27,612 bases of DNA from positions 1-27,612 of the IMG/VR virus record IMGVR_UViG_3300030331_004683. One strand, 5' to 3'. A program made the position numbers and the translations under genes. Below the pieces are notes generated by a model. That model searched no databases, was not told the DNA's origin, and saw only the letters and a program-made list of their open reading frames with translations. This DNA is from a virus. Of this stretch, positions 1-21,620 are shown piece by piece; within the stretch, counting starts at the first letter, position 1; each line of letters starts with the position of its first letter.

Positions 1-644
1 ACACAACTACAGCTTATAGCACAACAACAACTTATGCTACAAGCAGAAGCACGGGTGAAAGCAGAAACACAACAACAGCCTATGCAACAACAACAACATT
101 TAATACGTCTACTAGTACAACAACTGTATATGCTACAGCTGCAGCATTAACAAGCTTTAGTTCTACACCATCAAGTAGTTTAAGCTTTGTATGTTTTGAA
201 GTTATGTCAGACACTAGATTTGGTAGTAATGTATCTAGTGGAGTACCACAAGTAGGTTCAAATGTATATGCTATAAACAATACTAGCTTCCCATTAGCTA
301 ATGGTGTTTATGGCTGTGATTCAACTGGTGGTTTAGGATTTGGACCAGACACAATATATACTATTAGCGGAGGTGCTGGAGGTGTAGCATCATTAAGTAG
401 TTGTGGTGGTGGTTTCTCAGATAGATCATTAAAGAAAAATATTAGACAATATGGTAAGTCATTAAATGGAATAAATATATACTTGTTCGAATTTAAAGAT
501 GAGAAATATGGTAAAGGGGTATGGCAAGGTGTTATGGCTGATGAAGTAGAACATATACCAGGTGCAGTTGTAGAGTGGAACGGTCTTAAGTATGTAAACT
601 ACAATCACTGTGATGAAATAGATGTAGAATTTAAAAAGATATAA
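1..644 (+). CDS. Tail fibre, 3' part, with C-terminal S74 chaperone domain
   Basis: The frame is open from base 3 (first full codon) and the true start lies upstream of the window. The first ~45 residues are the same Thr/Ser/Asn/Tyr repeats as in the large fibre at 1215, including a TGESRNTTTAY module. A glycine-rich linker follows, then SDRSLKKNI (Ser codon at 417) and GVMADEVEHIPGAVV...GLKYVNY, the hallmarks of the peptidase S74 intramolecular chaperone. In that family the domain trimerises the fibre and cuts itself off just before the Ser of the Ser-Asp pair. The domain is short here, about 75 residues, and lacks the long C-terminal helix of some homologues. An ATG at 204 opens a smaller frame but leaves out the repeats, so I do not take it as the start. 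The role as a receptor-binding or side fibre is inferred from family and context. Confidence 0.85.
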   Translation, partial: TTTAYSTTTTYATSRSTGESRNTTTAYATTTTFNTSTSTTTVYATAAALTSFSSTPSSSLSFVCFEVMSDTRFGSNVSSGVPQVGSNVYAINNTSFPLANGVYGCDSTGGLGFGPDTIYTISGGAGGVASLSSCGGGFSDRSLKKNIRQYGKSLNGINIYLFEFKDEKYGKGVWQGVMADEVEHIPGAVVEWNGLKYVNYNHCDEIDVEFKKI

Positions 645-645
645 T

Positions 646-1212
646 ATGGGAGTTTATTTTAACGAAGATAATATAGTTGCACATACCGGTACAAATTTTG
701 TAATAGAAAAGCTTACTAGAAAAGATGAGAATATGGAAGACTATACTATTTCTAGGTTTAAGTATATACAAGATGTTTTACATTGTAAATTTAATCATGA
801 AATACCAGCAAAACTTTTTGCGGGCGACGGAGGTGAATGCTGTGGTTGGGATGTAACCGCAGCGCAATATAACGATGCAACATGGGGAGATGTATTATAT
901 TTAGGTTTATATTTAGGTAAAACACCTGATTATATATATAAAAATAAATCTGTAACATCTTTAGATGTAGTAGAGTCTGATCAAGAAATAATAGATCATG
1001 TTGGGTGGATAGATAACAATATAACCGTTATACAACATGATGAATGGACTTATGCAACATCAAAACAATACGATATTATAATATGTGATTTATGGGCTAT
1101 GCCAAATGACATAACTCAAGATCATAAAACAAGTTTGTTAAATAATTATACAAATAATTTAAAATCTGGTGGTAAAATAATAATACCAATATCAGGTGAA
1201 ACAATAAATTAA
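646..1212 (+). CDS. SAM-dependent methyltransferase-like protein (spermidine-synthase-like fold)
   Basis: This 188-residue protein has the layout of a Rossmann methyltransferase. DVLYLGLYLG (residues 82-91) resembles motif I, SLDVVESDQEI has an acidic residue (E110) where the SAM ribose is usually bound, and YDIIICDLW (around 142-150) resembles motif IV. Near the C-terminus, LKSGGKIIIPI resembles motif VI strand-turn sequences. Motif I is degenerate: it lacks a full G-x-G-x-G, so catalytic activity is not assured. The start follows the upstream stop by one base and the gene ends two bases before the next ATG, so it is translationally packed between two fibre genes. That position suggests a link with fibre maturation or modification, but the substrate cannot be read from the sequence. 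Confidence 0.6.
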   Translation: MGVYFNEDNIVAHTGTNFVIEKLTRKDENMEDYTISRFKYIQDVLHCKFNHEIPAKLFAGDGGECCGWDVTAAQYNDATWGDVLYLGLYLGKTPDYIYKNKSVTSLDVVESDQEIIDHVGWIDNNITVIQHDEWTYATSKQYDIIICDLWAMPNDITQDHKTSLLNNYTNNLKSGGKIIIPISGETIN

Positions 1213-1214
1213 TC

Positions 1215-4200
1215 ATGCCAAATACTAGTAGAAGTACAACAACAACATTCGCTACCAGTGATTTAACTGGAGAGAGCAGAAGTACGACGACGGCGTATAA
1301 TACTACTACTACGTATAATACCAGTAGAAGTACGGCTGAAAGTAGAGCTACAGGTACGTCAAGAAATACTACTACAAGTTTTAATACTACAACGGCATAT
1401 AATACTACTACAACTTATAATACCTCTAGGGGAACAGGAGAAAGTAGAAATACATCTACATCTAGAACAACTAGTACAGCTTTTAATACAAGCACCACAA
1501 CAACATATACGAGTTTCTTTTCTACTAGCAGGTCTACAACCACCACTTTTGCAACAAGTAAAAGTACAACTACTGTATATAATACAAGTAAAAGTACTAC
1601 TACAACATATAATACAAGTAAGAGTACTACAACAACATTTAATACTAGTAAATCTACCACAACCACTTTTAATACGTCTACCACTACTACAACAACTTTT
1701 AATACGTCTACTGTAACAACTAGAAGTACCACTACGACTTTTAATACAAGCAGAAGTACCACTACAACATTTAATACTTCTACTGCTACCACAACTACGT
1801 TTGCTACAAGTAAATTAACAAGTAGAAGCACAACAACTACATTTTCTACAAGCAGATCTACTACAACCACGTTTGCTACATCTAGAACAACAAGCACAGT
1901 ATTCAATACTAGTACAACAACTGTTTACACTACGACTTTTGCAACAAATAGAAACACTGCTGAGTCTAGGTCTACGACAACAGTATATACAACTAATACG
2001 GTATTCAACACTAGTACAGCGACTACCACCACTTTTAATACATCAACTATAACAAGTAAAAGTACTACAACTACATTTTCAACAAGTAGGAATACAACAG
2101 AGAGTAGAAGTACAACAACAGTTTATACTACTAATACTGTATTTAATACGTCAACGCTTACAGGTAGAAATACTACGACAACATTTAATACTAGTACAAC
2201 AACTGTTTATTCAACACAATTTGAAACTGCTAGAAATACTTTATCTACGTCGCCTATAAATAGAAACACAAGTAAACTTACTACTAGAAATACTATAACT
2301 GTATTTAATACATCTACTAGTACTGTATTTAATACTAGTACATCAACTACTACAGTATATACAACTACGTTTAGTACAAGCAAGAATACTACCACAACAG
2401 TTTCAACGTCTAGAAGCACAAGTAAATCTACATCAAGATCTACCACTACAACGTTTAGCACAAGTAAATCTACTACTACAACGTTTAATACAAGTACTGC
2501 AACCACAACTGTATTTAATACGTCAACTAATACTATTACAGTATACAATACAACAACCGCAACATCTAAAACCACAACAACTACATTTGGAACGTCAAGA
2601 ACCACGAGTACTACTATTTCAACATCAAAAAATACTACTACTGTATATACAACTACATTTAGCACTAATAGAACTACAACAACTACATTTAGCACTAATA
2701 GGTCAACTAATACAGTGTTTAATACTAGTACGGCAACTACGACAACTTTCAATACATCGACAGTAACTAATACTGTTTTCAATACAAGTACTTCAACAAC
2801 AACGGTATTTAATACAACAACAAGTACAGTATTTAACACAAGTACGTCCACAAACACTACGGTTAGTACAAGTAAAAATACTACGACAACATTTAATACA
2901 TCAACTAATACTGTTTATAATACAAGTACAGAAACAGTTCAAAATACTTTGTCTACTATACCTATAAATAGAAATACAAGTAAATTAACAAATACTATTA
3001 CAATAACCGCATTTAATACAAGTACAACAACAGTATTTAATACATCTACAAGTACAAGCACTGTTTATACAACAACATATAATACAAGTACTTCAACAAC
3101 TACTGTATATACCACAACATTTAGTACAAATAAAAATACTACAACAGTATATAATACGTCGACTTCTACAGGTACAACGACAACAATTAGTACATCTAAG
3201 TCAACAACAACTGTTTATTTAGCAGCGAGAAATACATTAGTAACCGAAGCTATTAATAGAAACACAACGGTATCTACTAGCACAATAACAATTACTTCGT
3301 TTAACACAAGTACAACAACCGTGTTTAATACTAGTACTGCAACAACAACAGTTTATACAACAACGTTCTCAACTAGTAAATCAACAGATACTCAATATAC
3401 AACAACGTTTTCAACTGATAAAAGTACAACTACGGTTTATAACACATCAACCGTAACTCAAATTGCTACTGCAAAATCAACTTCTAAATCAACTTCTACA
3501 ACATTTGAAGAAGCAAGAAACACTCTGGTAACTGAGGCGATAAATAGAAATACAACAGTTTCAACAAGCACAATTACTATAACGGCATTTAACACAAGTA
3601 CCACCACTACATTCAATACCAGTACAAGTACTACTACCGTATATACAACGACTTTTGAAACTAGCAAATCAACTAATACTGAATATACAACGACTTTCAG
3701 TACTAATAGAAACACAACCACTGTATATAATACATCAACAACAACACAAGTTTCTACAGCAAAATCAACTTCAAAGTCAACAAGCACAACTTTTGAAGAG
3801 GCAAGAAATACATTAGTGACAGAAGCTATAAACAGGAACACTACAGTATCAACTAGTACTATTACTATAACAGCATTTAATACTAGTACGACCACAGTAT
3901 TTAACACAAGTACTGAGACTACTACCACGTTTTCAACGAGTAAGAGTACAGATACAACTGTTTCAACTTCTAGAAATACTACAACAACGTTTAACACATC
4001 GACTACTACAGTATTTAATACTTCGACTAATACAACAGTTTCAACGTCTAAATCTACTGATACAGTTTATAGCACTAGTAAAAGTACAACAACAAGTTTT
4101 GGCACGGTTACACCAACTAACATTTCAACATCAACAACTGTTAGCACAAGTAAAACCACATCAACAACTTTTTCAACGTCAAGTGTAGTAAATACATCAA

Positions 4201-4562
4201 CAGTGTTTAATACTAGTACAACTACGGTATACACAACTAGTACAGTTTATAGTACTACAACAGTATTTAACACTAGCACAAGTACTGTATTTAATACCAG
4301 TACAAGCACCGCATTTAATACTAGTACTTCTACAGTATTCAATACCGCTACGAGCACCGTATTTAATACTGCAACTACCACGGTATTTAATACCAGTACA
4401 ACAACAGTTTATAGTACGAGTACAACTACAATTACAAGTTCAATTGTTAGCACATCGTTCTCAACAAGCTTTGATACGACAACTAGCGTTATAACAACAT
4501 GGTATGTTCCTTCAACGAGAGCACATCAACCTGGAGACGTGTCGCATCACCCGCGAAGTTAG
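1215..4562 (+). CDS. Giant Thr/Ser/Asn-repeat tail fibre or adhesin
   Basis: The 1115-residue protein consists almost wholly of units such as NTSKSTTTTF (10 residues) and VFNTSTST (8 residues), with occasional 4-, 6-, 14- and 16-residue spacings between Phe/Tyr. The body has no Cys, no Trp until the end, and hardly any Gly or Pro. Larger modules recur: a TxESR module near the N-terminus (also in the fibre at 1-644) and ARNTLVTEAINRNT modules spaced 288 bp apart. The strict alternation of residue types suggests extended beta structure, in a shaft or solenoid. The C-terminus leaves the repeat with TTWYVPSTRAHQPGDVSHH and has no S74 domain, unlike the upstream fibre. No signal peptide is seen. 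The role as a long tail fibre is inferred from repetition, its relation to the S74-bearing fibre and its place beside virion genes. A decoration or ice-binding-like function is possible but unsupported. Confidence 0.75.
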   Translation: MPNTSRSTTTTFATSDLTGESRSTTTAYNTTTTYNTSRSTAESRATGTSRNTTTSFNTTTAYNTTTTYNTSRGTGESRNTSTSRTTSTAFNTSTTTTYTSFFSTSRSTTTTFATSKSTTTVYNTSKSTTTTYNTSKSTTTTFNTSKSTTTTFNTSTTTTTTFNTSTVTTRSTTTTFNTSRSTTTTFNTSTATTTTFATSKLTSRSTTTTFSTSRSTTTTFATSRTTSTVFNTSTTTVYTTTFATNRNTAESRSTTTVYTTNTVFNTSTATTTTFNTSTITSKSTTTTFSTSRNTTESRSTTTVYTTNTVFNTSTLTGRNTTTTFNTSTTTVYSTQFETARNTLSTSPINRNTSKLTTRNTITVFNTSTSTVFNTSTSTTTVYTTTFSTSKNTTTTVSTSRSTSKSTSRSTTTTFSTSKSTTTTFNTSTATTTVFNTSTNTITVYNTTTATSKTTTTTFGTSRTTSTTISTSKNTTTVYTTTFSTNRTTTTTFSTNRSTNTVFNTSTATTTTFNTSTVTNTVFNTSTSTTTVFNTTTSTVFNTSTSTNTTVSTSKNTTTTFNTSTNTVYNTSTETVQNTLSTIPINRNTSKLTNTITITAFNTSTTTVFNTSTSTSTVYTTTYNTSTSTTTVYTTTFSTNKNTTTVYNTSTSTGTTTTISTSKSTTTVYLAARNTLVTEAINRNTTVSTSTITITSFNTSTTTVFNTSTATTTVYTTTFSTSKSTDTQYTTTFSTDKSTTTVYNTSTVTQIATAKSTSKSTSTTFEEARNTLVTEAINRNTTVSTSTITITAFNTSTTTTFNTSTSTTTVYTTTFETSKSTNTEYTTTFSTNRNTTTVYNTSTTTQVSTAKSTSKSTSTTFEEARNTLVTEAINRNTTVSTSTITITAFNTSTTTVFNTSTETTTTFSTSKSTDTTVSTSRNTTTTFNTSTTTVFNTSTNTTVSTSKSTDTVYSTSKSTTTSFGTVTPTNISTSTTVSTSKTTSTTFSTSSVVNTSTVFNTSTTTVYTTSTVYSTTTVFNTSTSTVFNTSTSTAFNTSTSTVFNTATSTVFNTATTTVFNTSTTTVYSTSTTTITSSIVSTSFSTSFDTTTSVITTWYVPSTRAHQPGDVSHHPRS
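2937..3911 (+). repeat. 288-bp (96-residue) tandem super-repeat inside the large fibre gene
   Basis: The module that reads xxNTLxTxxINRNT starts at 2937, 3225, 3513 and 3801, exactly 288 bp apart each time; the fourth copy is only matched for its first ~37 residues. A further isolated header lies at 2229, outside this register. The copies starting at 3225 and 3513 match at 84 of 96 residues. In the first 24 residues of those two copies all amino acids are identical, but 17 of 24 codons differ synonymously, so the repeat is far clearer in protein than in DNA. Confidence 0.9.
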
Positions 4563-4614: not shown

Positions 4615-5520
4615 ATGGAAATGTTTAATAAAAAAGAGCTTGATAAAAGAATCGGCCCTTTAAAAAAAGATAAGCAATTATATAACTTAGAACAAGTTGA
4701 AGGTTATGTAATTAGAAAAGCTAGTGAAGTTGGTTTAGAAACTAGCTACGATGTTATGGCAGAAGAAATGCCATATTTTAAAACTTTAGCATATACAGAA
4801 TATGCGGGTAACTTTTATTTACAACCGTTAAATTTCAAACTAAGAAACGAACAATTAATAGATGCGTTTCATTGTACTGAAAAAACAAATAAATTAGATT
4901 ACTCTGATTGGCTAGTAAATAGAATAGTAAATAATCAAGCAAATAAATATTTAGAAAGAGACGAAAAAGCTTTAGCTAAATATCCAGCAAAAGATTATAT
5001 AGTTGTTTTACCCGGGTCTAATAAGGTTAGAGAAAATGTTTGTTTGAATAGATTAAAGTTCATTGCTAAAGAGCATGGAGATAATATTTATTTTAAACCA
5101 CATCCTATAACAACACATCAAATTATTGGTGAATTGAAAGATTTCTTTGGTGAAGAAAATGTATTACCAAGAAATATAAACATGTATTATTATTTACAAA
5201 AAGCTAAAGGCGTATATACAACACATATAAGTGAAAGTTGTGTTTACGGTGTAGTATTAGGTAAAGATACTCAACCTATAGATGTTTGGAATAATATACA
5301 AAGAGGTTCATTTTATTGTATTAATAATCATTTATTATATCATCAAGATAAAGCAAAAGATTATATCAATAAAACTTTTTCAAATTATAAATCAGGTATT
5401 ATAAACCCTGAGCTAGATAAAAACTGGCAAGAAAAAGTTGATAAGTATATTGATTATATATGCGAAAAAAGAAATAAATACAAAAATTGGTTCTTAGACG
5501 GAAGAGCACAAAAGAAATAA
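4615..5520 (+). CDS. GT-B glycosyltransferase-like / capsule-synthesis-like protein
   Basis: The 301-residue protein has a C-terminal half like nucleotide-sugar-binding domains of GT-B enzymes of the capsule-synthesis or glycerophosphotransferase type. DYIVVLPGSNKVREN (from residue 127) begins it, followed by IYFKPHP with K161-P162-H163-P164, then a FGEENVLP turn and HISESCVYGVVLGK (204-217). The last matches the Ser/Glu plus Gly-Lys sugar-nucleotide loop in this position. The N-terminal half is not recognised. The start has no Shine-Dalgarno sequence and follows a 52-bp AT-rich spacer after the fibre gene. Placed next to a protein dominated by Thr, Ser and Asn, it could glycosylate the fibre; alternatively it could alter host surface sugars. 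Fold assignment is moderate, substrate unknown. Confidence 0.5.
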   Translation: MEMFNKKELDKRIGPLKKDKQLYNLEQVEGYVIRKASEVGLETSYDVMAEEMPYFKTLAYTEYAGNFYLQPLNFKLRNEQLIDAFHCTEKTNKLDYSDWLVNRIVNNQANKYLERDEKALAKYPAKDYIVVLPGSNKVRENVCLNRLKFIAKEHGDNIYFKPHPITTHQIIGELKDFFGEENVLPRNINMYYYLQKAKGVYTTHISESCVYGVVLGKDTQPIDVWNNIQRGSFYCINNHLLYHQDKAKDYINKTFSNYKSGIINPELDKNWQEKVDKYIDYICEKRNKYKNWFLDGRAQKK

Positions 5521-5521
5521 A

Positions 5522-5740
5522 ATGAAACTTATAAGAAAAATTACTATAGGAAAAGATTATAAAAATGATGCAATGCATTATTCTGTTGGCCAAGATGTAT
5601 ATGGTGGCCATACAATAGATTCTATAGTCGAAGAAAATGATAAGTTTTCCATTTATATTAAAAAAGGAAAAGAGGTTTTGCCTTGGAAAGATTTTAATAA
5701 AAACATGGCTATATCTGTTGAATATAATTTAGAATATTAA
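5522..5740 (+). CDS. Small conserved-looking protein of unknown function
   Basis: The 72-residue product begins MKLIRKITIG and ends AISVEYNLEY. Alternating hydrophobic and charged residues (HTIDSIVEENDKFSIYIKKG) suggest a small mostly-beta domain. It has no signal peptide, membrane segment or cysteine. It starts two bases after the glycosyltransferase-like stop and its own stop overlaps the next start (TAATG), so it is probably translationally coupled with its neighbours. I recognise this kind of short gene upstream of terminases in marine phages but cannot assign a role. Confidence 0.65.
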   Translation: MKLIRKITIGKDYKNDAMHYSVGQDVYGGHTIDSIVEENDKFSIYIKKGKEVLPWKDFNKNMAISVEYNLEY

Positions 5741-6324
5741 TGCAAAGCATATCTGATTTTATAATCAAACCTAAAAATAAAAGATATAACAATACAAAAC
5801 AGATCGGTGATTCAGAGTTACTGTTAAATTCAGAAATCTCTGATCATCGGTATGTTAGTAGAAATGCTATTGTTTTAGCCACGCCTTTAATTAATGAAAC
5901 AGATATAAAAGTTGGCGATGAAATAATTGTTCATCATAATGTTTTTAGACGCTGGTATGATGTAAGAGGTGTAGAAAAAAATAGCAGAAGCTATTATAAA
6001 AAAAATAAATATTTTGTAAAAGCTGATCAAATATTTTTATATAAAAGAAATAACGAATGGCAAGCGCCAAAAGGTTATTGTTTTATCAAACCAATTGTAT
6101 CTAATAATATTATTGAAAAAGAAGTACCTTTACGTGGAATAATAAAACATGTAGATAAAGATTTAATCGGTATTGAAAAAGAAGATCTAGTTGGTTTCAC
6201 ACCTAGCAGCGAATATGAATTTGTTGTTGACGGTGAAAGATTATATAGAGTATTAACAAATTCAATATCTATTAAATATGAACGTAAAGGAAACGAAAAA
6301 GAATATAATCCAAGCTGGACATAA
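5740..6324 (+). CDS. Possible GroES-like (co-chaperonin-fold) protein
   Basis: The 194-residue product can be read as two GroES-like halves. In the first, SRNAIVLATPLINETDIKVGDEIIVHHN resembles the strand - 'VKVGD' turn - strand of co-chaperonins, with a long HHNVFRRWYDVRG segment in place of the mobile region. In the second, YCFIKPIV and PLRGIIKHVDKDLI lead to EKEDLVGFTPSSEYEFVVDG and LYRVLTNSISIKYE, like the GroES C-terminal strands. It starts on the TAATG overlap with the small gene before it. Phage co-chaperonins such as T4 gp31 help the host GroEL fold the capsid protein, which would suit its place ahead of the head genes. The resemblance is by eye only; an unrelated OB-like virion protein is the main alternative. 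Confidence 0.45.
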   Translation: MQSISDFIIKPKNKRYNNTKQIGDSELLLNSEISDHRYVSRNAIVLATPLINETDIKVGDEIIVHHNVFRRWYDVRGVEKNSRSYYKKNKYFVKADQIFLYKRNNEWQAPKGYCFIKPIVSNNIIEKEVPLRGIIKHVDKDLIGIEKEDLVGFTPSSEYEFVVDGERLYRVLTNSISIKYERKGNEKEYNPSWT

Positions 6325-17132: not shown

Positions 17133-20100
17133 ATGCCGGAAATAAAGAATAGTTTCATCAAAGGTAAAATGAATAAAGACCTTGATGATAAAATATTACC
17201 TAACGGTGAGTATAGAGACGCTGTTAACATTAAAGTATCTAAATCAGATAATTCAGATGTAGGTTCTGCACAAAATGTTAAAGGCAATGACTATGAATAT
17301 GGTGTTGGGAAAAAAATAACTTTTACAGGTGATACTATAGGCAAGCATGTTAATAAGCTAACTGGCGATGTTTTTTGGTTTGTAACTGATTTTACAGGTA
17401 TTGATATAGATGATCCTGTGTCAATGGAAACTAACGGCGGATTTGCTACTAGTTCTAATAATTGTAAAATATATCATACTAAACTAGGAAGTGGCCAAGA
17501 ACCTAAAGAATTAATTAATAGCTTTAGATTAAATTTTTCTAAAAAACATCCAATATTACATTCAAATATAATAGATGAATTATTATTTTGGACTGATAAT
17601 TATAATCAACCTAGAAAAATAAATATTAGAATAGCAATAGATGATAGAGAAAAAGATGACGCAGAAAAATATTATAAAAATGACAAATATTTAGAAGATA
17701 AAATTAGTGTTGCACAATATGCGCCGGCTAGCGCTCCTAAAGTTAGAATGTCTCATGATACTTCTATAAAAAGTAAACATATAGAAGATAAATTTGTTAA
17801 ATTTGCATATAGGTTTCAATTTGATAATAATGAATATTCAATAATATCACCTTTTACTCAAACTTGTTTTCATCCTGGCAAAGGTAAAGATTTTAATTTT
17901 GGTGAATTTCAAAATACCGCTAAAGCTGGCGTTTTAACATCTGCAGAAGAGACAGACGCTGTTGAACAAACAATAGTAAAATCTGTGCAAAATTTAGCAA
18001 ATGTTGTAGAGTTATTTATTGATTTACCAGGTATGACGCTAACAGATGGTATAACTGAAAATAATCATGCCGCTTGTAGCATAAATAAATCTGGTGGCGA
18101 AAGTGGGGGCTATCCAATAACTATTGACGGAGTTAATGGAACCATAGCTAACGGCAATACTGTTTTAACAGAAAGAGGTGATAACTATACTGTTGACACA
18201 AGTGCTGGTACTTTAGATTCAACTAATTTACCATTATCAACAAGTATTGATTCAAAAATACCTTTAATAGATAATCAACGTTTATATTTCTTTACAAATA
18301 TAGCTGATTATGTAAATAATTTAAAAATTAAAAAAATACAAATATTATATAGTGAAGCTGGTAGCTTAGCTTTAAAAGTTGTAGATACAATTGATTTTAA
18401 AAAGCAAGTTTTAAACACATCAGATAACATTAACAATATAATATACAGAGCAGAGCCAATATCTGATAATAAAGCCAAACTTATGTATGGTTTTAAATTT
18501 ACTTATAACTCTGCAAAGCCAATATTAACCTTGCCAGAGTCTGAGTTAATAAGAATATCTGATATAATACCAGTTAAAGCAAAAACACAAGAAGTCAGCG
18601 GTAATAGAGTTATATATGGTAATTTTTGGCAAAATAGAGATATAACAGGTATAAACGCAGATGATTTTAATATTACAAGTGGTGATCAAGATAAACTTAA
18701 TTCTCAATATTTATTATCTTCTGTAAAATCTAATAGAGAATATTCTGTTGGTATAGTTTTATCTGATAGATATGGAAGGCATTCAACTGTTCTTACTCCA
18801 ACAGATAATACAGAATTTTTAGATCCTAAAAGCGGAAGTTTTGCATCATGGAATCATTATGCTTTAAAATTAAACTTTAATGGGGTAATTGGCGATGCTT
18901 ATTCCGCTGACACTAACCCTTTAGGTTGGCACACATATAAAATAGTTGTTAAACAGGCAGAACAAGAATATCATAATGTATTTGCACCAACTATTTTAGA
19001 TAATATTCCAGCAGATGAAAAAAGATCATGGCTAGTATTGCATGGTGATAATATAAATAAAGTACCTAGAGATGTTACTGATACTAATACTGAAGACGGA
19101 ACTCAAGGATCACAAACAAGTTTATTGCCTAAAATATTAGATACTAATGGTAGCTCAACACAACAAAGTGGTACAGAATTTATAGATATAATTTCTATAG
19201 GTACTAAAAATGAGCATGGTATTGGAACTAGTATACCTGATTTTTATTTAAATGATAAAAATCCTTTATTAGCTGAATTACCCGACGGTAGTGGACGTAA
19301 TCATAGTCAAGGAACTACGTTTGATAATTTAATTGTTTTAGAAACAAAACCAGTTTCTTCAGCTTTAGATTTATATTTTGAAACTTCTACAGCAGGTTTA
19401 GTGTCACATTTAAATGAACAAATAGACGAAGGATTAACTGGTTCTGTTCCAAACGCGGTAGCTTTAAGTGCAAACACAGTAGCCGAAAGCGCTTCATCAG
19501 GCACTAAAGTTGCGGATTTAACAACTACAGACTCGAGCGGATCAACTATTAGTACTCCAACATATTCAATAGTTTCAATTTTTGATGGTAATGGTACTGA
19601 TAGAGCTGGAGCTTTTGTAATTGATGGTGAAGATTTAGATACTGGAGAAACATTTGAATTTAAAAATAATAATCAAGATACATATAGTATTACAATAAAA
19701 TCTACAAAAGGCAGTAATTCACAAAATTTTCCTAAAACAGTTACCGTATCTAACGTTGTGCCAACACAAACAGTTGGTTCATCTTTAGCATTAGCAGCAT
19801 CAACTACAGTTGGTACTGCTATTAGAACAATAACAGCTGTTAACGGAAGCGCTAAATCTGGTGCTACAGCTAATAATTTAACCTTTTCAATAGTTAGCGG
19901 TAATACAGATAATGATTTTTCTATTAATTCAAGTACAGGTGTAATATCAGTTGCTAATTCATTAACAGCTGGAGATTCATATACATTAGGTATAAGAACA
20001 ACTGATGTGGGTGGTTTACAAGATAACGATAATTTATCTATAACTATTTCATCGTCAAACTTTACATCTTTTTATAGGTCAGAAGGAGCTTCGTCACCAA

Positions 20101-20336
20101 TTCCTGATGCTTGTGATCGAGCTGTAGGTATTCTTGCTTATCATAATGGAACTGATGCAGTGCCTGTTCAAGGTGATACTATTTTTACAGATGCTCAAGG
20201 AACTACGCCGCTTGCTGGAGGTAATGCTGACTTTGCTTGGTCTCCAGGTGGAGGGTCACATAATGGTACAGGAACATCTTTTAAAGCGCCTGTTAATAAC
20301 TCAGGTGTAGTAGGTTCGGTAACTTTATGTAGCTAA
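17133..20336 (+). CDS. Tail hub / muzzle-like (stabilisation) protein with cadherin-like and tip domains
   Basis: The 1067-residue protein opens with MPEIKNSFIKGKMNKDLDDK and NGEYRDAVNIKVS (24-36) plus SDVGSAQNVKGN, the signature I know from large tail hub or muzzle proteins of crAss-like and marine podoviruses. A beta-rich body follows to about residue 770, including SNREYSVGIVLSDRYGRHS and VLETKPVSSALDLYFETS. Residues ~772-870 and ~876-975 look like two cadherin-like or Ig-like domains (NTVAESASSGTKVADL; NDFSINSSTGVISVAN). From 977 a distinct module with two Cys (PDACDRAVGILAYHNG, VQGDTIFTDAQGTTPL, TLCS at the end) resembles adhesin tip domains. In my recollection homologues continue into sequence that is here on the next gene, so this may be a split hub. 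Confidence 0.7.
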   Translation: MPEIKNSFIKGKMNKDLDDKILPNGEYRDAVNIKVSKSDNSDVGSAQNVKGNDYEYGVGKKITFTGDTIGKHVNKLTGDVFWFVTDFTGIDIDDPVSMETNGGFATSSNNCKIYHTKLGSGQEPKELINSFRLNFSKKHPILHSNIIDELLFWTDNYNQPRKINIRIAIDDREKDDAEKYYKNDKYLEDKISVAQYAPASAPKVRMSHDTSIKSKHIEDKFVKFAYRFQFDNNEYSIISPFTQTCFHPGKGKDFNFGEFQNTAKAGVLTSAEETDAVEQTIVKSVQNLANVVELFIDLPGMTLTDGITENNHAACSINKSGGESGGYPITIDGVNGTIANGNTVLTERGDNYTVDTSAGTLDSTNLPLSTSIDSKIPLIDNQRLYFFTNIADYVNNLKIKKIQILYSEAGSLALKVVDTIDFKKQVLNTSDNINNIIYRAEPISDNKAKLMYGFKFTYNSAKPILTLPESELIRISDIIPVKAKTQEVSGNRVIYGNFWQNRDITGINADDFNITSGDQDKLNSQYLLSSVKSNREYSVGIVLSDRYGRHSTVLTPTDNTEFLDPKSGSFASWNHYALKLNFNGVIGDAYSADTNPLGWHTYKIVVKQAEQEYHNVFAPTILDNIPADEKRSWLVLHGDNINKVPRDVTDTNTEDGTQGSQTSLLPKILDTNGSSTQQSGTEFIDIISIGTKNEHGIGTSIPDFYLNDKNPLLAELPDGSGRNHSQGTTFDNLIVLETKPVSSALDLYFETSTAGLVSHLNEQIDEGLTGSVPNAVALSANTVAESASSGTKVADLTTTDSSGSTISTPTYSIVSIFDGNGTDRAGAFVIDGEDLDTGETFEFKNNNQDTYSITIKSTKGSNSQNFPKTVTVSNVVPTQTVGSSLALAASTTVGTAIRTITAVNGSAKSGATANNLTFSIVSGNTDNDFSINSSTGVISVANSLTAGDSYTLGIRTTDVGGLQDNDNLSITISSSNFTSFYRSEGASSPIPDACDRAVGILAYHNGTDAVPVQGDTIFTDAQGTTPLAGGNADFAWSPGGGSHNGTGTSFKAPVNNSGVVGSVTLCS

Positions 20337-20357: not shown

Positions 20358-21620
20358 ATGGGATATACTATTGACATACAGTTTCAAAATACCTTTATTA
20401 TAAGATCTGCAACAGCTGTTCGTCATTTTGAGGAATCTAGAATAAAAGGAGGTTTTAATGAACCTTTTGTAAGCATAGGGCCTAAAGCTCATTTAGTAGA
20501 TGAAAATTTTGCAGGGCAAAGAAGAAATAATGCTTTAATATATTCTGGTATTTATAATTCAAAAACTGATGTTAATAGAACAAATGTATTTAGCGCAGGT
20601 GAACCAATAACAAGAGCGGTTGACCCTGCTAATGGGCCTATACAAAAACTACATGCTGAAGATACAAATTTAAATATATTGCAATCTGATAAAGTTAGTT
20701 ATGCTTTAATTGATAAAGATGCGTTATTTACAGCTGAAGGAGGAAGATTAACAGCATCTGGTGCCGCGGTAATAGGTCAAATAATTCCTTATCAAGGAAG
20801 ATATGGAACTCAACATCCTGAAAGTTTTGCTTTCAAAGGTATAAGAAAATATTTTGTAGATAAAAATAGAGCAGCGGTTTTAAGATTATCTAGAGATGGT
20901 ATTACTGAAATATCTCAATATGGAATGCGTGATTGGTTTAGAGATAATTTAAATTTAGTAAAAGATGATTATCCTGATGATAAAGTTGTAGGATATTATG
21001 ACGACCATCATGATCAATATGTGGTATCTTTACAGGGTTTAAGCGGTACTATTGATGGTTTATCTGTAAATGAATATTATACTTTATCGTTTGATGATAG
21101 CATAAATGGATGGATTAGTTTTTATGACTATAAACCTGATTTTGGATTTAGTCATAATAAAAAGTTTTTTACTTTAAATGAAAATAATATATGGCAGCAT
21201 TATGTAAATGAGCTTCGTAATAACTTTTATGGACAGGGCAACGCATCATATATTACTTTTGTTGCTAATGAATCGCCATCTACAGTTAAGAATTTTTTAA
21301 GTATATATTATGAAGGAACTTCATATTGGGCTATGGAATCTGCAAAAGCAGAAGATGGTGTAAGACAAACGGTTCAAAAAGCTAAAAAAATTGATCAATC
21401 AGAACTAAATTTAACAGGTGATATTTTAAATCAATTTCAAAAGAAAGAAGATAAATATTATTCTTATATAAAAAATGACACTGGCGCTATAAAAGGCGGT
21501 GTTACTGGATTAGATACGGCTGGAATAGCTGGTTTATTTTCAGTAGTTGAAATGAGTAACGGTAATGACACTCAGCAAGAGTTATTTTCTGTATCTCATG
21601 TTATATCAAAATCAAGTTAA
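20358..21620 (+). CDS. Second part of hub/muzzle-like tail protein
   Basis: The 420-residue protein has NRTNVFSAGEPITRAV (73-88), IQKLHAEDTNLNILQSDKVS, IIPYQGRYGTQHPESFAFKG (142-161) and RLSRDGITEISQYGMRDWF (176-194), followed by YYDDHHDQYVVSL. These blade-like blocks, rich in aromatic residues and turns, match what I associate with the C-terminal half of large tail hub proteins. It starts 21 bases after the stop of the 1067-residue gene, with no Shine-Dalgarno sequence and an AT-rich leader. The two may associate as subunits of one ring. The alternative, a fully separate tail protein, is possible. It is directly abutted by the GNAT-like gene. Confidence 0.6.
   Translation: MGYTIDIQFQNTFIIRSATAVRHFEESRIKGGFNEPFVSIGPKAHLVDENFAGQRRNNALIYSGIYNSKTDVNRTNVFSAGEPITRAVDPANGPIQKLHAEDTNLNILQSDKVSYALIDKDALFTAEGGRLTASGAAVIGQIIPYQGRYGTQHPESFAFKGIRKYFVDKNRAAVLRLSRDGITEISQYGMRDWFRDNLNLVKDDYPDDKVVGYYDDHHDQYVVSLQGLSGTIDGLSVNEYYTLSFDDSINGWISFYDYKPDFGFSHNKKFFTLNENNIWQHYVNELRNNFYGQGNASYITFVANESPSTVKNFLSIYYEGTSYWAMESAKAEDGVRQTVQKAKKIDQSELNLTGDILNQFQKKEDKYYSYIKNDTGAIKGGVTGLDTAGIAGLFSVVEMSNGNDTQQELFSVSHVISKSS

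Follow-up and report, generated by a model that had tools for sequence, protein, structure and literature searches.

A repeat fibre protein with a two-residue register is very probably one strand of an antiparallel two-protein phage fibre

The receptor-binding tip of bacteriophage T4 gp37 is a short six-stranded antiparallel β needle, and λ Stf is predicted to resemble it (PMC9659904, PMC7291167). The S74 intramolecular chaperone trimerises its protein and cuts afterwards (PMC3742443). Here, we describe a fibre locus on an IMG/VR virus record of 27.6 kb, analysed over its whole length and referred to as the window. By terminase, portal and other structural genes, flavobacterial podoviruses lie nearby; TerL matches an environmental Manatee Spring phage at 62%, Elemovirus at 44% and Cellulophaga/Tenacibaculum phages at 31–38%. 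The original prediction had treated the 1115-residue product of one gene, B, as a self-contained fibre. We propose instead that B is very probably one strand of a two-protein fibre, with the product of the upstream gene A as its antiparallel, in-register partner, and A3B3 as the likely assembly. The features of the locus are as follows.

3..137, + strand: last 45 repeat residues of gene A, TTTAYSTTTTYATSRSTGESRNTTTAYATTTTFNTSTSTTTVYAT; the 5′ part of the gene lies beyond the start of the record
138..416, + strand: tip domain of gene A, the interval from repeat to chaperone (AF2 model of the whole A tail, mean pLDDT 82.4)
417..641, + strand: C-terminal self-cleaving intramolecular chaperone of gene A (Peptidase_S74; PF13884, E=7.6e-5, above cutoff)
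646..1212, + strand: 188-aa ORF between A and B, SAM-binding/methyltransferase-like, with a sub-threshold spermine synthase match
1215-4562, + strand: whole ORF of gene B, ATG to stop, 1115 aa, exact coordinates
1215..4499, + strand: repeat strand of gene B, 1095 aa, in a single two-residue register throughout
1506..1520, + strand: YTSFF, aa 98-102 of B, the sole odd aromatic spacing in the repeat body; its two odd steps cancel
2220..2283, + strand: B island 1, FETARNTLSTSPINRNTSKLT
2928..2990, + strand: B island 2, TETVQNTLSTIPINRNTSKLT
3216..3278, + strand: B island 3, YLAARNTLVTEAINRNTTVST
3504..3566, + strand: B island 4, FEEARNTLVTEAINRNT..., within a 288-bp tandem repeat
3792..3854, + strand: B island 5, FEEARNTLVTEAINRNT..., within a 288-bp tandem repeat
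4500..4559, + strand: C-terminal tail of gene B, WYVPSTRAHQPGDVSHHPRS, kept in relatives
4615..5520, + strand: 301-aa gene, phrog_26179, directly 3′ of the fibre module

Aromatic residues of B had been noted, in the stretches checked, to lie an even number of residues apart, with Lys/Arg on the same parity and Asn/Ser on the other. A full tabulation bears this out: 93 of 96 successive F/Y steps are even. Steps within the body measure between 4 and 32 residues and are odd in YTSFF only, the third odd step being FDTTTSVITTWY at the extreme C-terminus. Over aa 1-1085, the counts at even/odd positions are 94/1 for F/Y, 63/0 for K/R, 0/96 for N, 6/179 for S and 1/33 for A (binomial p from 4e-9 to 2e-45), and the repeat body contains no His. 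The upstream fibre was noted to follow the same rule until its repeat ends, and ORF 3-644 does obey parity up to aa 45.

Each of the 16 tandem-repeat rows in gene B has a period divisible by 6 bp. At the same time, all four Thr codons (225/163/55/40) and both Ser codon boxes are in use, and because the codons are mixed, parity reflects a constraint at the protein level and not recent slippage by one unit. The claim that indels occur in multiples of 6 bp only was somewhat too strict: of the 127 indels that separate close homologues, 124 are even and three are odd, and rare bulge motifs do switch the phase. Such phase switches are restricted in homologues to a small set of non-repeat motifs that recur and behave like one-residue bulges; TTFST^FVRNSISTLITAYNT, TTRTIN^DTGRDT and STQ^LQETNKS are examples. 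The five islands of B are mirror counterparts of the phase-switch islands of A, as seen in relatives.

Gene B has no match in Pfam or PHROG, hence no S74 domain, and a phmmer search against the PDB gave no match at E<=1. Likewise, tblastn against cultured phages with the low-complexity filter on found no match for B, the A tail or the N-domain of L057, and a scan of genome contigs with B confirmed nothing. An ending of the WYVPSTRAHQPGDVSHHPRS type is common to the B proteins of L004, L010, L014, L033 and others; this tail is predicted to adjoin the start of the A chain on the virion side.

In the S74 domain of A, S95 and D96 (the cleavage site) and K100 are invariant in 15 of 15 aligned homologues, with five residues from the cleavage-site Ser to the Lys. 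Matches of the A-tail model in BFVD are annotated as 'intramolecular chaperone auto-processing' proteins, and a PDB fold search with the same AF2 model returned no significant match. From its position only, the tip domain (138..416) is presumed to be the receptor-binding head. The A genes of L021, L023 and L024 end in a Gly-rich tail and carry no S74 motif in the same ORF; here, the chaperone may be separate or lost.

Searching with B, with the tail of A and with the ORF between them turned up relatives, and in these loci A and B adjoin in constant order. The 188-aa ORF occupies the same place between them in 21 loci. Setting the repeat ends of A on a conserved anchor motif yielded 22 non-redundant A/B pairs. 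Across these genomes repeat lengths vary from 424 to 1188 aa, and A and B of the same genome differ by 0-24 aa (r=0.9998). In L006, L010 and L014 the A repeat is the longer one by 17 aa, from which a length of about 1110 aa would be expected for the A repeat of the window. The A-B difference grows with the excess of phase switches in A over those in B (r=0.72), and the parity expected from this bookkeeping agrees in 16 of 22 genomes. This is suggestive of each phase switch being a one-residue bulge on one strand, with a bookkeeping that is not exact.

Indels were compared between close pairs only, since low-complexity sequence aligns to anything at 70% and distant maps are unreliable. Relative to L017, L016 lacks 68 aa from A at position 126, which mirrors to 300, and 68 aa from B at 304. 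L006 and L010 are separated by 12-aa indels: those of A fall at 567 and 1012, those of B at 138 and 579, for which the mirrored positions are 138 and 583. For L027 and L040, the indels of A (+40, -56, -12, +10, +20) recur in B as the same series reversed and at mirrored places, and the pairs L006/L014 and L017/L018 show mirrored indels likewise. Parallel mapping gives a poorer fit than mirrored mapping in these close pairs. The mirrored indels indicate that A and B are tied together antiparallel and in register. A mirrored-deletion test on L022/L055 failed, as the deletions differ in size (66 and 36); the truncated L055 record is full of repeats, and assembly collapse is a possible cause of the mismatch.

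Mutual information between residue p of A and residue q of B, with p+q=Aend+s and pooled over the 22 genomes, is highest at s=4 (0.74 bits), with a background of 0.2-0.3 far away. Taken singly, 20 of the 22 genomes have their maximum at this value; the exceptions, L039 and L042, show a uniform shift. Cells at s=4 contain 657 F/Y-K/R pairs, one aromatic-aromatic and no cation-cation pair, and Asn lies opposite Ser 400 times and opposite Asn 22 times. Six genomes have one ungapped full-length register. Here, 398 of 410 K/R(H) residues (about 97%) face an aromatic residue, the observed/expected ratio for aromatic-cation pairs is about 10 (9.6-11.2), and no aromatic-aromatic or cation-cation pair is observed where 24 and 15, respectively, are expected. 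The sequence F-N-T-S-K is its own antiparallel complement under this code, which accounts for its being very common.

Because gapped alignments inflate control scores, we placed ungapped 120-aa windows of B anywhere on reversed A, scoring them with a leave-cluster-out matrix learned from the other clusters, of which the first 212 residues were used. The antiparallel diagonal was the best place for 181 of 218 windows. Own pairs reached a mean best score of 0.44 bits/residue, as against -0.12 for swapped genomes, -0.33 for parallel placement and 0.05-0.07 for self pairing. The offset from the diagonal stays at 0 over hundreds of residues and steps by 1 at phase switches; in L021 and L023 the step is 5. 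The ungapped signal weakens inside islands. It also does so over the distal half of the 1100-aa genomes, the longest ones, where internal repeats are alike. Compensation by substitution is weak: a class change at an A site is accompanied by a partner change in 7 of 47 cases versus ~5% at most other offsets, with 13% at offset +4 too. Conditional mutual information hints at a second contact register at -2, which could be a barrel neighbour or just a diagonal contact.

Gene A of the window is incomplete at the start of the record, and the full-length pairing rests on relatives. The A stub of the window (48 residues used), when reversed, nevertheless finds B residues 1-48 as the single best of 1048 placements, scoring 1.02 bits/residue; the next placement scores 0.45 and the median is -1.25. 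Window B also shows clear pairing to the A chains of L006 and L010 over its first ~300 residues and then weaker pairing; against L010, the offset is 0 over B 1-350, with scores of 0.56-1.18. Equal length, antiparallel register, the pairing code and mirrored indels are shown by these sequence comparisons. Of the marks that we propose for a two-gene fibre, equal length, mirrored indels and the K/R-F/Y code were found in the relatives, to which the window adds its stub. Since F/Y and K/R of A set the K/R and F/Y of B, parity in B can be understood as a by-product of the second chain. The architecture originally envisaged, a continuous β structure with alternating faces and no fixed turn length, stands in these respects, but it missed the second chain.

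How else could these patterns arise? Two separate homotrimeric fibres, with triple β-helix or β-spiral shafts for example, might merely need equal length; homotrimers are the norm for S74-type fibres, and B is equipped with a start of its own and with a C-terminus that is conserved. Such fibres, however, leave the pairing of A with reversed B, the mirrored indels and the loss of signal upon swapping genomes unpredicted. Self pairing is far below A-B pairing, and the fixed period that a helical rung would need is absent, so that we regard this explanation as very improbable. A β-solenoid with Thr ladders of the ice-binding TxT type, formed by each chain alone, would suit the TxT-rich, alternating sequence of B, and no PDB homologue was found that would exclude it directly. 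It is nonetheless harder still to believe, since it needs a regular rung length, yet F-F distances span 4 to 32 residues, and it leaves the partner-chain code unexplained. The least credible explanation, to which we give next to no weight, is that parity is a DNA artefact, produced by slippage of 6-bp-multiple units in the absence of structural selection. The repeat periods, every one a multiple of 6 bp, would agree with it, but the use of all four Thr codons and the survival of parity between diverged units speak against it, and slippage cannot produce matched mirrored indels in two genes. An antisense or inverted-repeat DNA origin of the complementarity was considered and rejected: DNA inverted repeats from A to B that would support it were not found, with none at all in the window or L034 and a single imperfect 24-nt inverted pair in L010, both arms of which lie within gene A.

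A different matter is how the paired chains assemble. The data fix the pairing of A with B and leave stoichiometry free, and the signal at -2 is ambiguous; a two-stranded ribbon, an A2B2 assembly or a stacked cross-β sheet in place of a closed A3B3 needle is unlikely, though by no means negligible. The S74 chaperone means that A should be trimeric (PMC3742443), which argues against these assemblies. For the ribbon in particular, a further objection is that an isolated two-stranded ribbon of >1000 residues is unlikely to hold.

In the two-protein fibre that we favour, A would run outward from the virion and end in the tip domain and the self-cleaving, trimerising chaperone, while B would return along A in antiparallel orientation, keeping register for the full length (p+q constant). 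Each would be a single extended β strand along the fibre axis, which would leave parity as the sole rule inside each chain. Between the chains, one face would have each Lys/Arg stacked on a partner Phe/Tyr and Thr opposite Thr; on the other, Asn would prefer Ser. Because A is trimerised by its chaperone, A3B3 is the likely assembly and would form a six-stranded antiparallel needle. An indel in either gene would need an indel of the same size at the mirrored place in the other, and single-residue phase switches would be bulges. We infer the β geometry, the A3B3 stoichiometry, the assignment of the inner face and a role as long tail/receptor-binding fibre; with an axial rise of ~0.33 nm for each residue, a length of roughly 360 nm would be expected here.

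Four genomes (L007, L063, L022 and L057) each encode a single long repeat protein, interrupted about halfway by an apex that is not repetitive. Single-chain carriers belong to two unrelated groups; L057 is a T4-like 188-kb record with a tail sheath, and L013, with HK97-type head genes, has a fibre almost identical to that of L007 (99.4%). The pairing matrix trained on A/B was applied to these proteins without retraining and gave constant fold-back sums: c=720 in L063 (7/7 windows), c=910 in L007 (6/9), c=1232 in L022 (9/13) and c=1374 in L057 (9/14). With these sums, the last residue opposes the first residue beyond the N-terminal anchor (720-712=8, 910-901=9, 1232-1184=48, 1374-1322=52). Judged by this fold-back, the single-chain fibres are hairpins, and the two-gene fibre would share their design, having two chain ends in place of the turn. 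An AF2 model of the L007 hinge fragment, computed as a monomer, was uninformative (pLDDT 32). Code-type fibres would then be spread over crAss-related flavophage podoviruses, a T4-like 188-kb phage and HK97-type phages. We consider it quite probable that they represent a general class of code-specified antiparallel phage fibres (K/R-F/Y, Thr-Thr, Asn-Ser), made from two genes or as a hairpin in unrelated phages, with matched indels in the two-gene form.

In cultured Caulobacter phages, BL199 gp042 (L067:8321-8974) and Cr30 gp254 (L066:8497-8847) are short, Thr/Tyr-rich and roughly alternating, and both lie close to a relative of the window's 4615-5520 gene. BL199 gp042 was rejected as a member, as the pairing test gave no consistent register. 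No such fibre was found in the first 50 kb each of Cellulophaga phi38:1, phi19:3 and Tenacibaculum Gundel_1, or in ~32-kb regions of an Elemovirus and of the Manatee Spring phage.

The phrog_26179 gene is also located 3′ of the single-chain fibre in L063 (5491-6393), a phage with unrelated structural genes, indicating that this gene travels with the architecture. A gene at the equivalent place in L007 (3107-3988) looks similar and is a candidate for the family, and distant relatives occur in KVP40 and Caulobacter phages. Beside the hairpin fibre of L063 (6378-8295) are genes for a GT29 sialyltransferase-like protein, a methyltransferase and a GT8-like glycosyltransferase; adjoining enzymes of this type are possible candidates for glycosylation or modification of the Ser/Thr/Asn-rich fibre. 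Elsewhere in the window, a GroES-like gene (phrog_13932) at 5740-6324 is placed directly 5′ of the terminase. The 1067-aa protein at 17133-20336 contains a crAss muzzle domain as its N-terminus, followed by cadherin-like domains, and the muzzle family match resumes in the adjoining ORF 20358-21620, so that the gene looks split.

The A/B pair would be a protein analogue of strand complementarity: its two chains, separately encoded and up to ~1200 residues long, reveal in their sequences the partner, its orientation and the exact register. Fibre length becomes predictable from gene length, at about 140-390 nm across the family, and paired fibre genes in metagenomes can be annotated by a self-checking rule. 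How identical indels get fixed in two genes is an evolutionary puzzle. The code also offers a natural, testable β-strand pairing system for materials and protein design.

Among described systems, the needle at the tip of T4 gp37, reportedly described by Bartual in 2010, has most in common with these fibres: axial antiparallel strands, a chain running out and back, a trimer, and parity as the sole sequence rule, where strand geometry and trimer are deductions on our side. Antiparallel register and alternation, the marks of a gp37-type needle, are seen here by covariation, and the β and axial nature is presumed. The fibres of L007, L063, L022 and L057 fold back similarly about a non-repeat apex. 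The gp37 needle, however, is one short hairpin from one gene, whereas here each strand comprises 400-1200 residues and the window's family uses two genes; the residue complementarity code (K/R-F/Y, Asn-Ser) is found on the side of the present fibres. The gp37 needle is also said to have a metal-His core, while the B repeat body is free of His, and the PDB search detected no homology of B to gp37 or any solved needle. With S74/intramolecular-chaperone fibres and tailspikes, the locus shares the terminal domain of A with its S-D site and Lys, but by the present evidence the shaft is not a homotrimeric β-helix, and a second gene provides the return strands. Fixed-period shafts (triple β-helix, β-spiral) have a constant repeat length, which B lacks. 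No description of an architecture of the A/B type was found in the full-text literature and databases searched, a coverage that excludes subscription papers and preprints, and the complementary two-chain fibre appears to be new. Looser analogies exist outside phages. The (GA)n/(GS)n strands of silk fibroin show the two-residue alternation of B with no higher fixed period, but they are low in information and self-associating, with no specific partner or register. Type I/II keratin heterodimers are, like A and B, obligate and co-extensive two-gene fibres; they differ in forming a parallel α coiled coil built on heptads, with no antiparallel residue-by-residue code.
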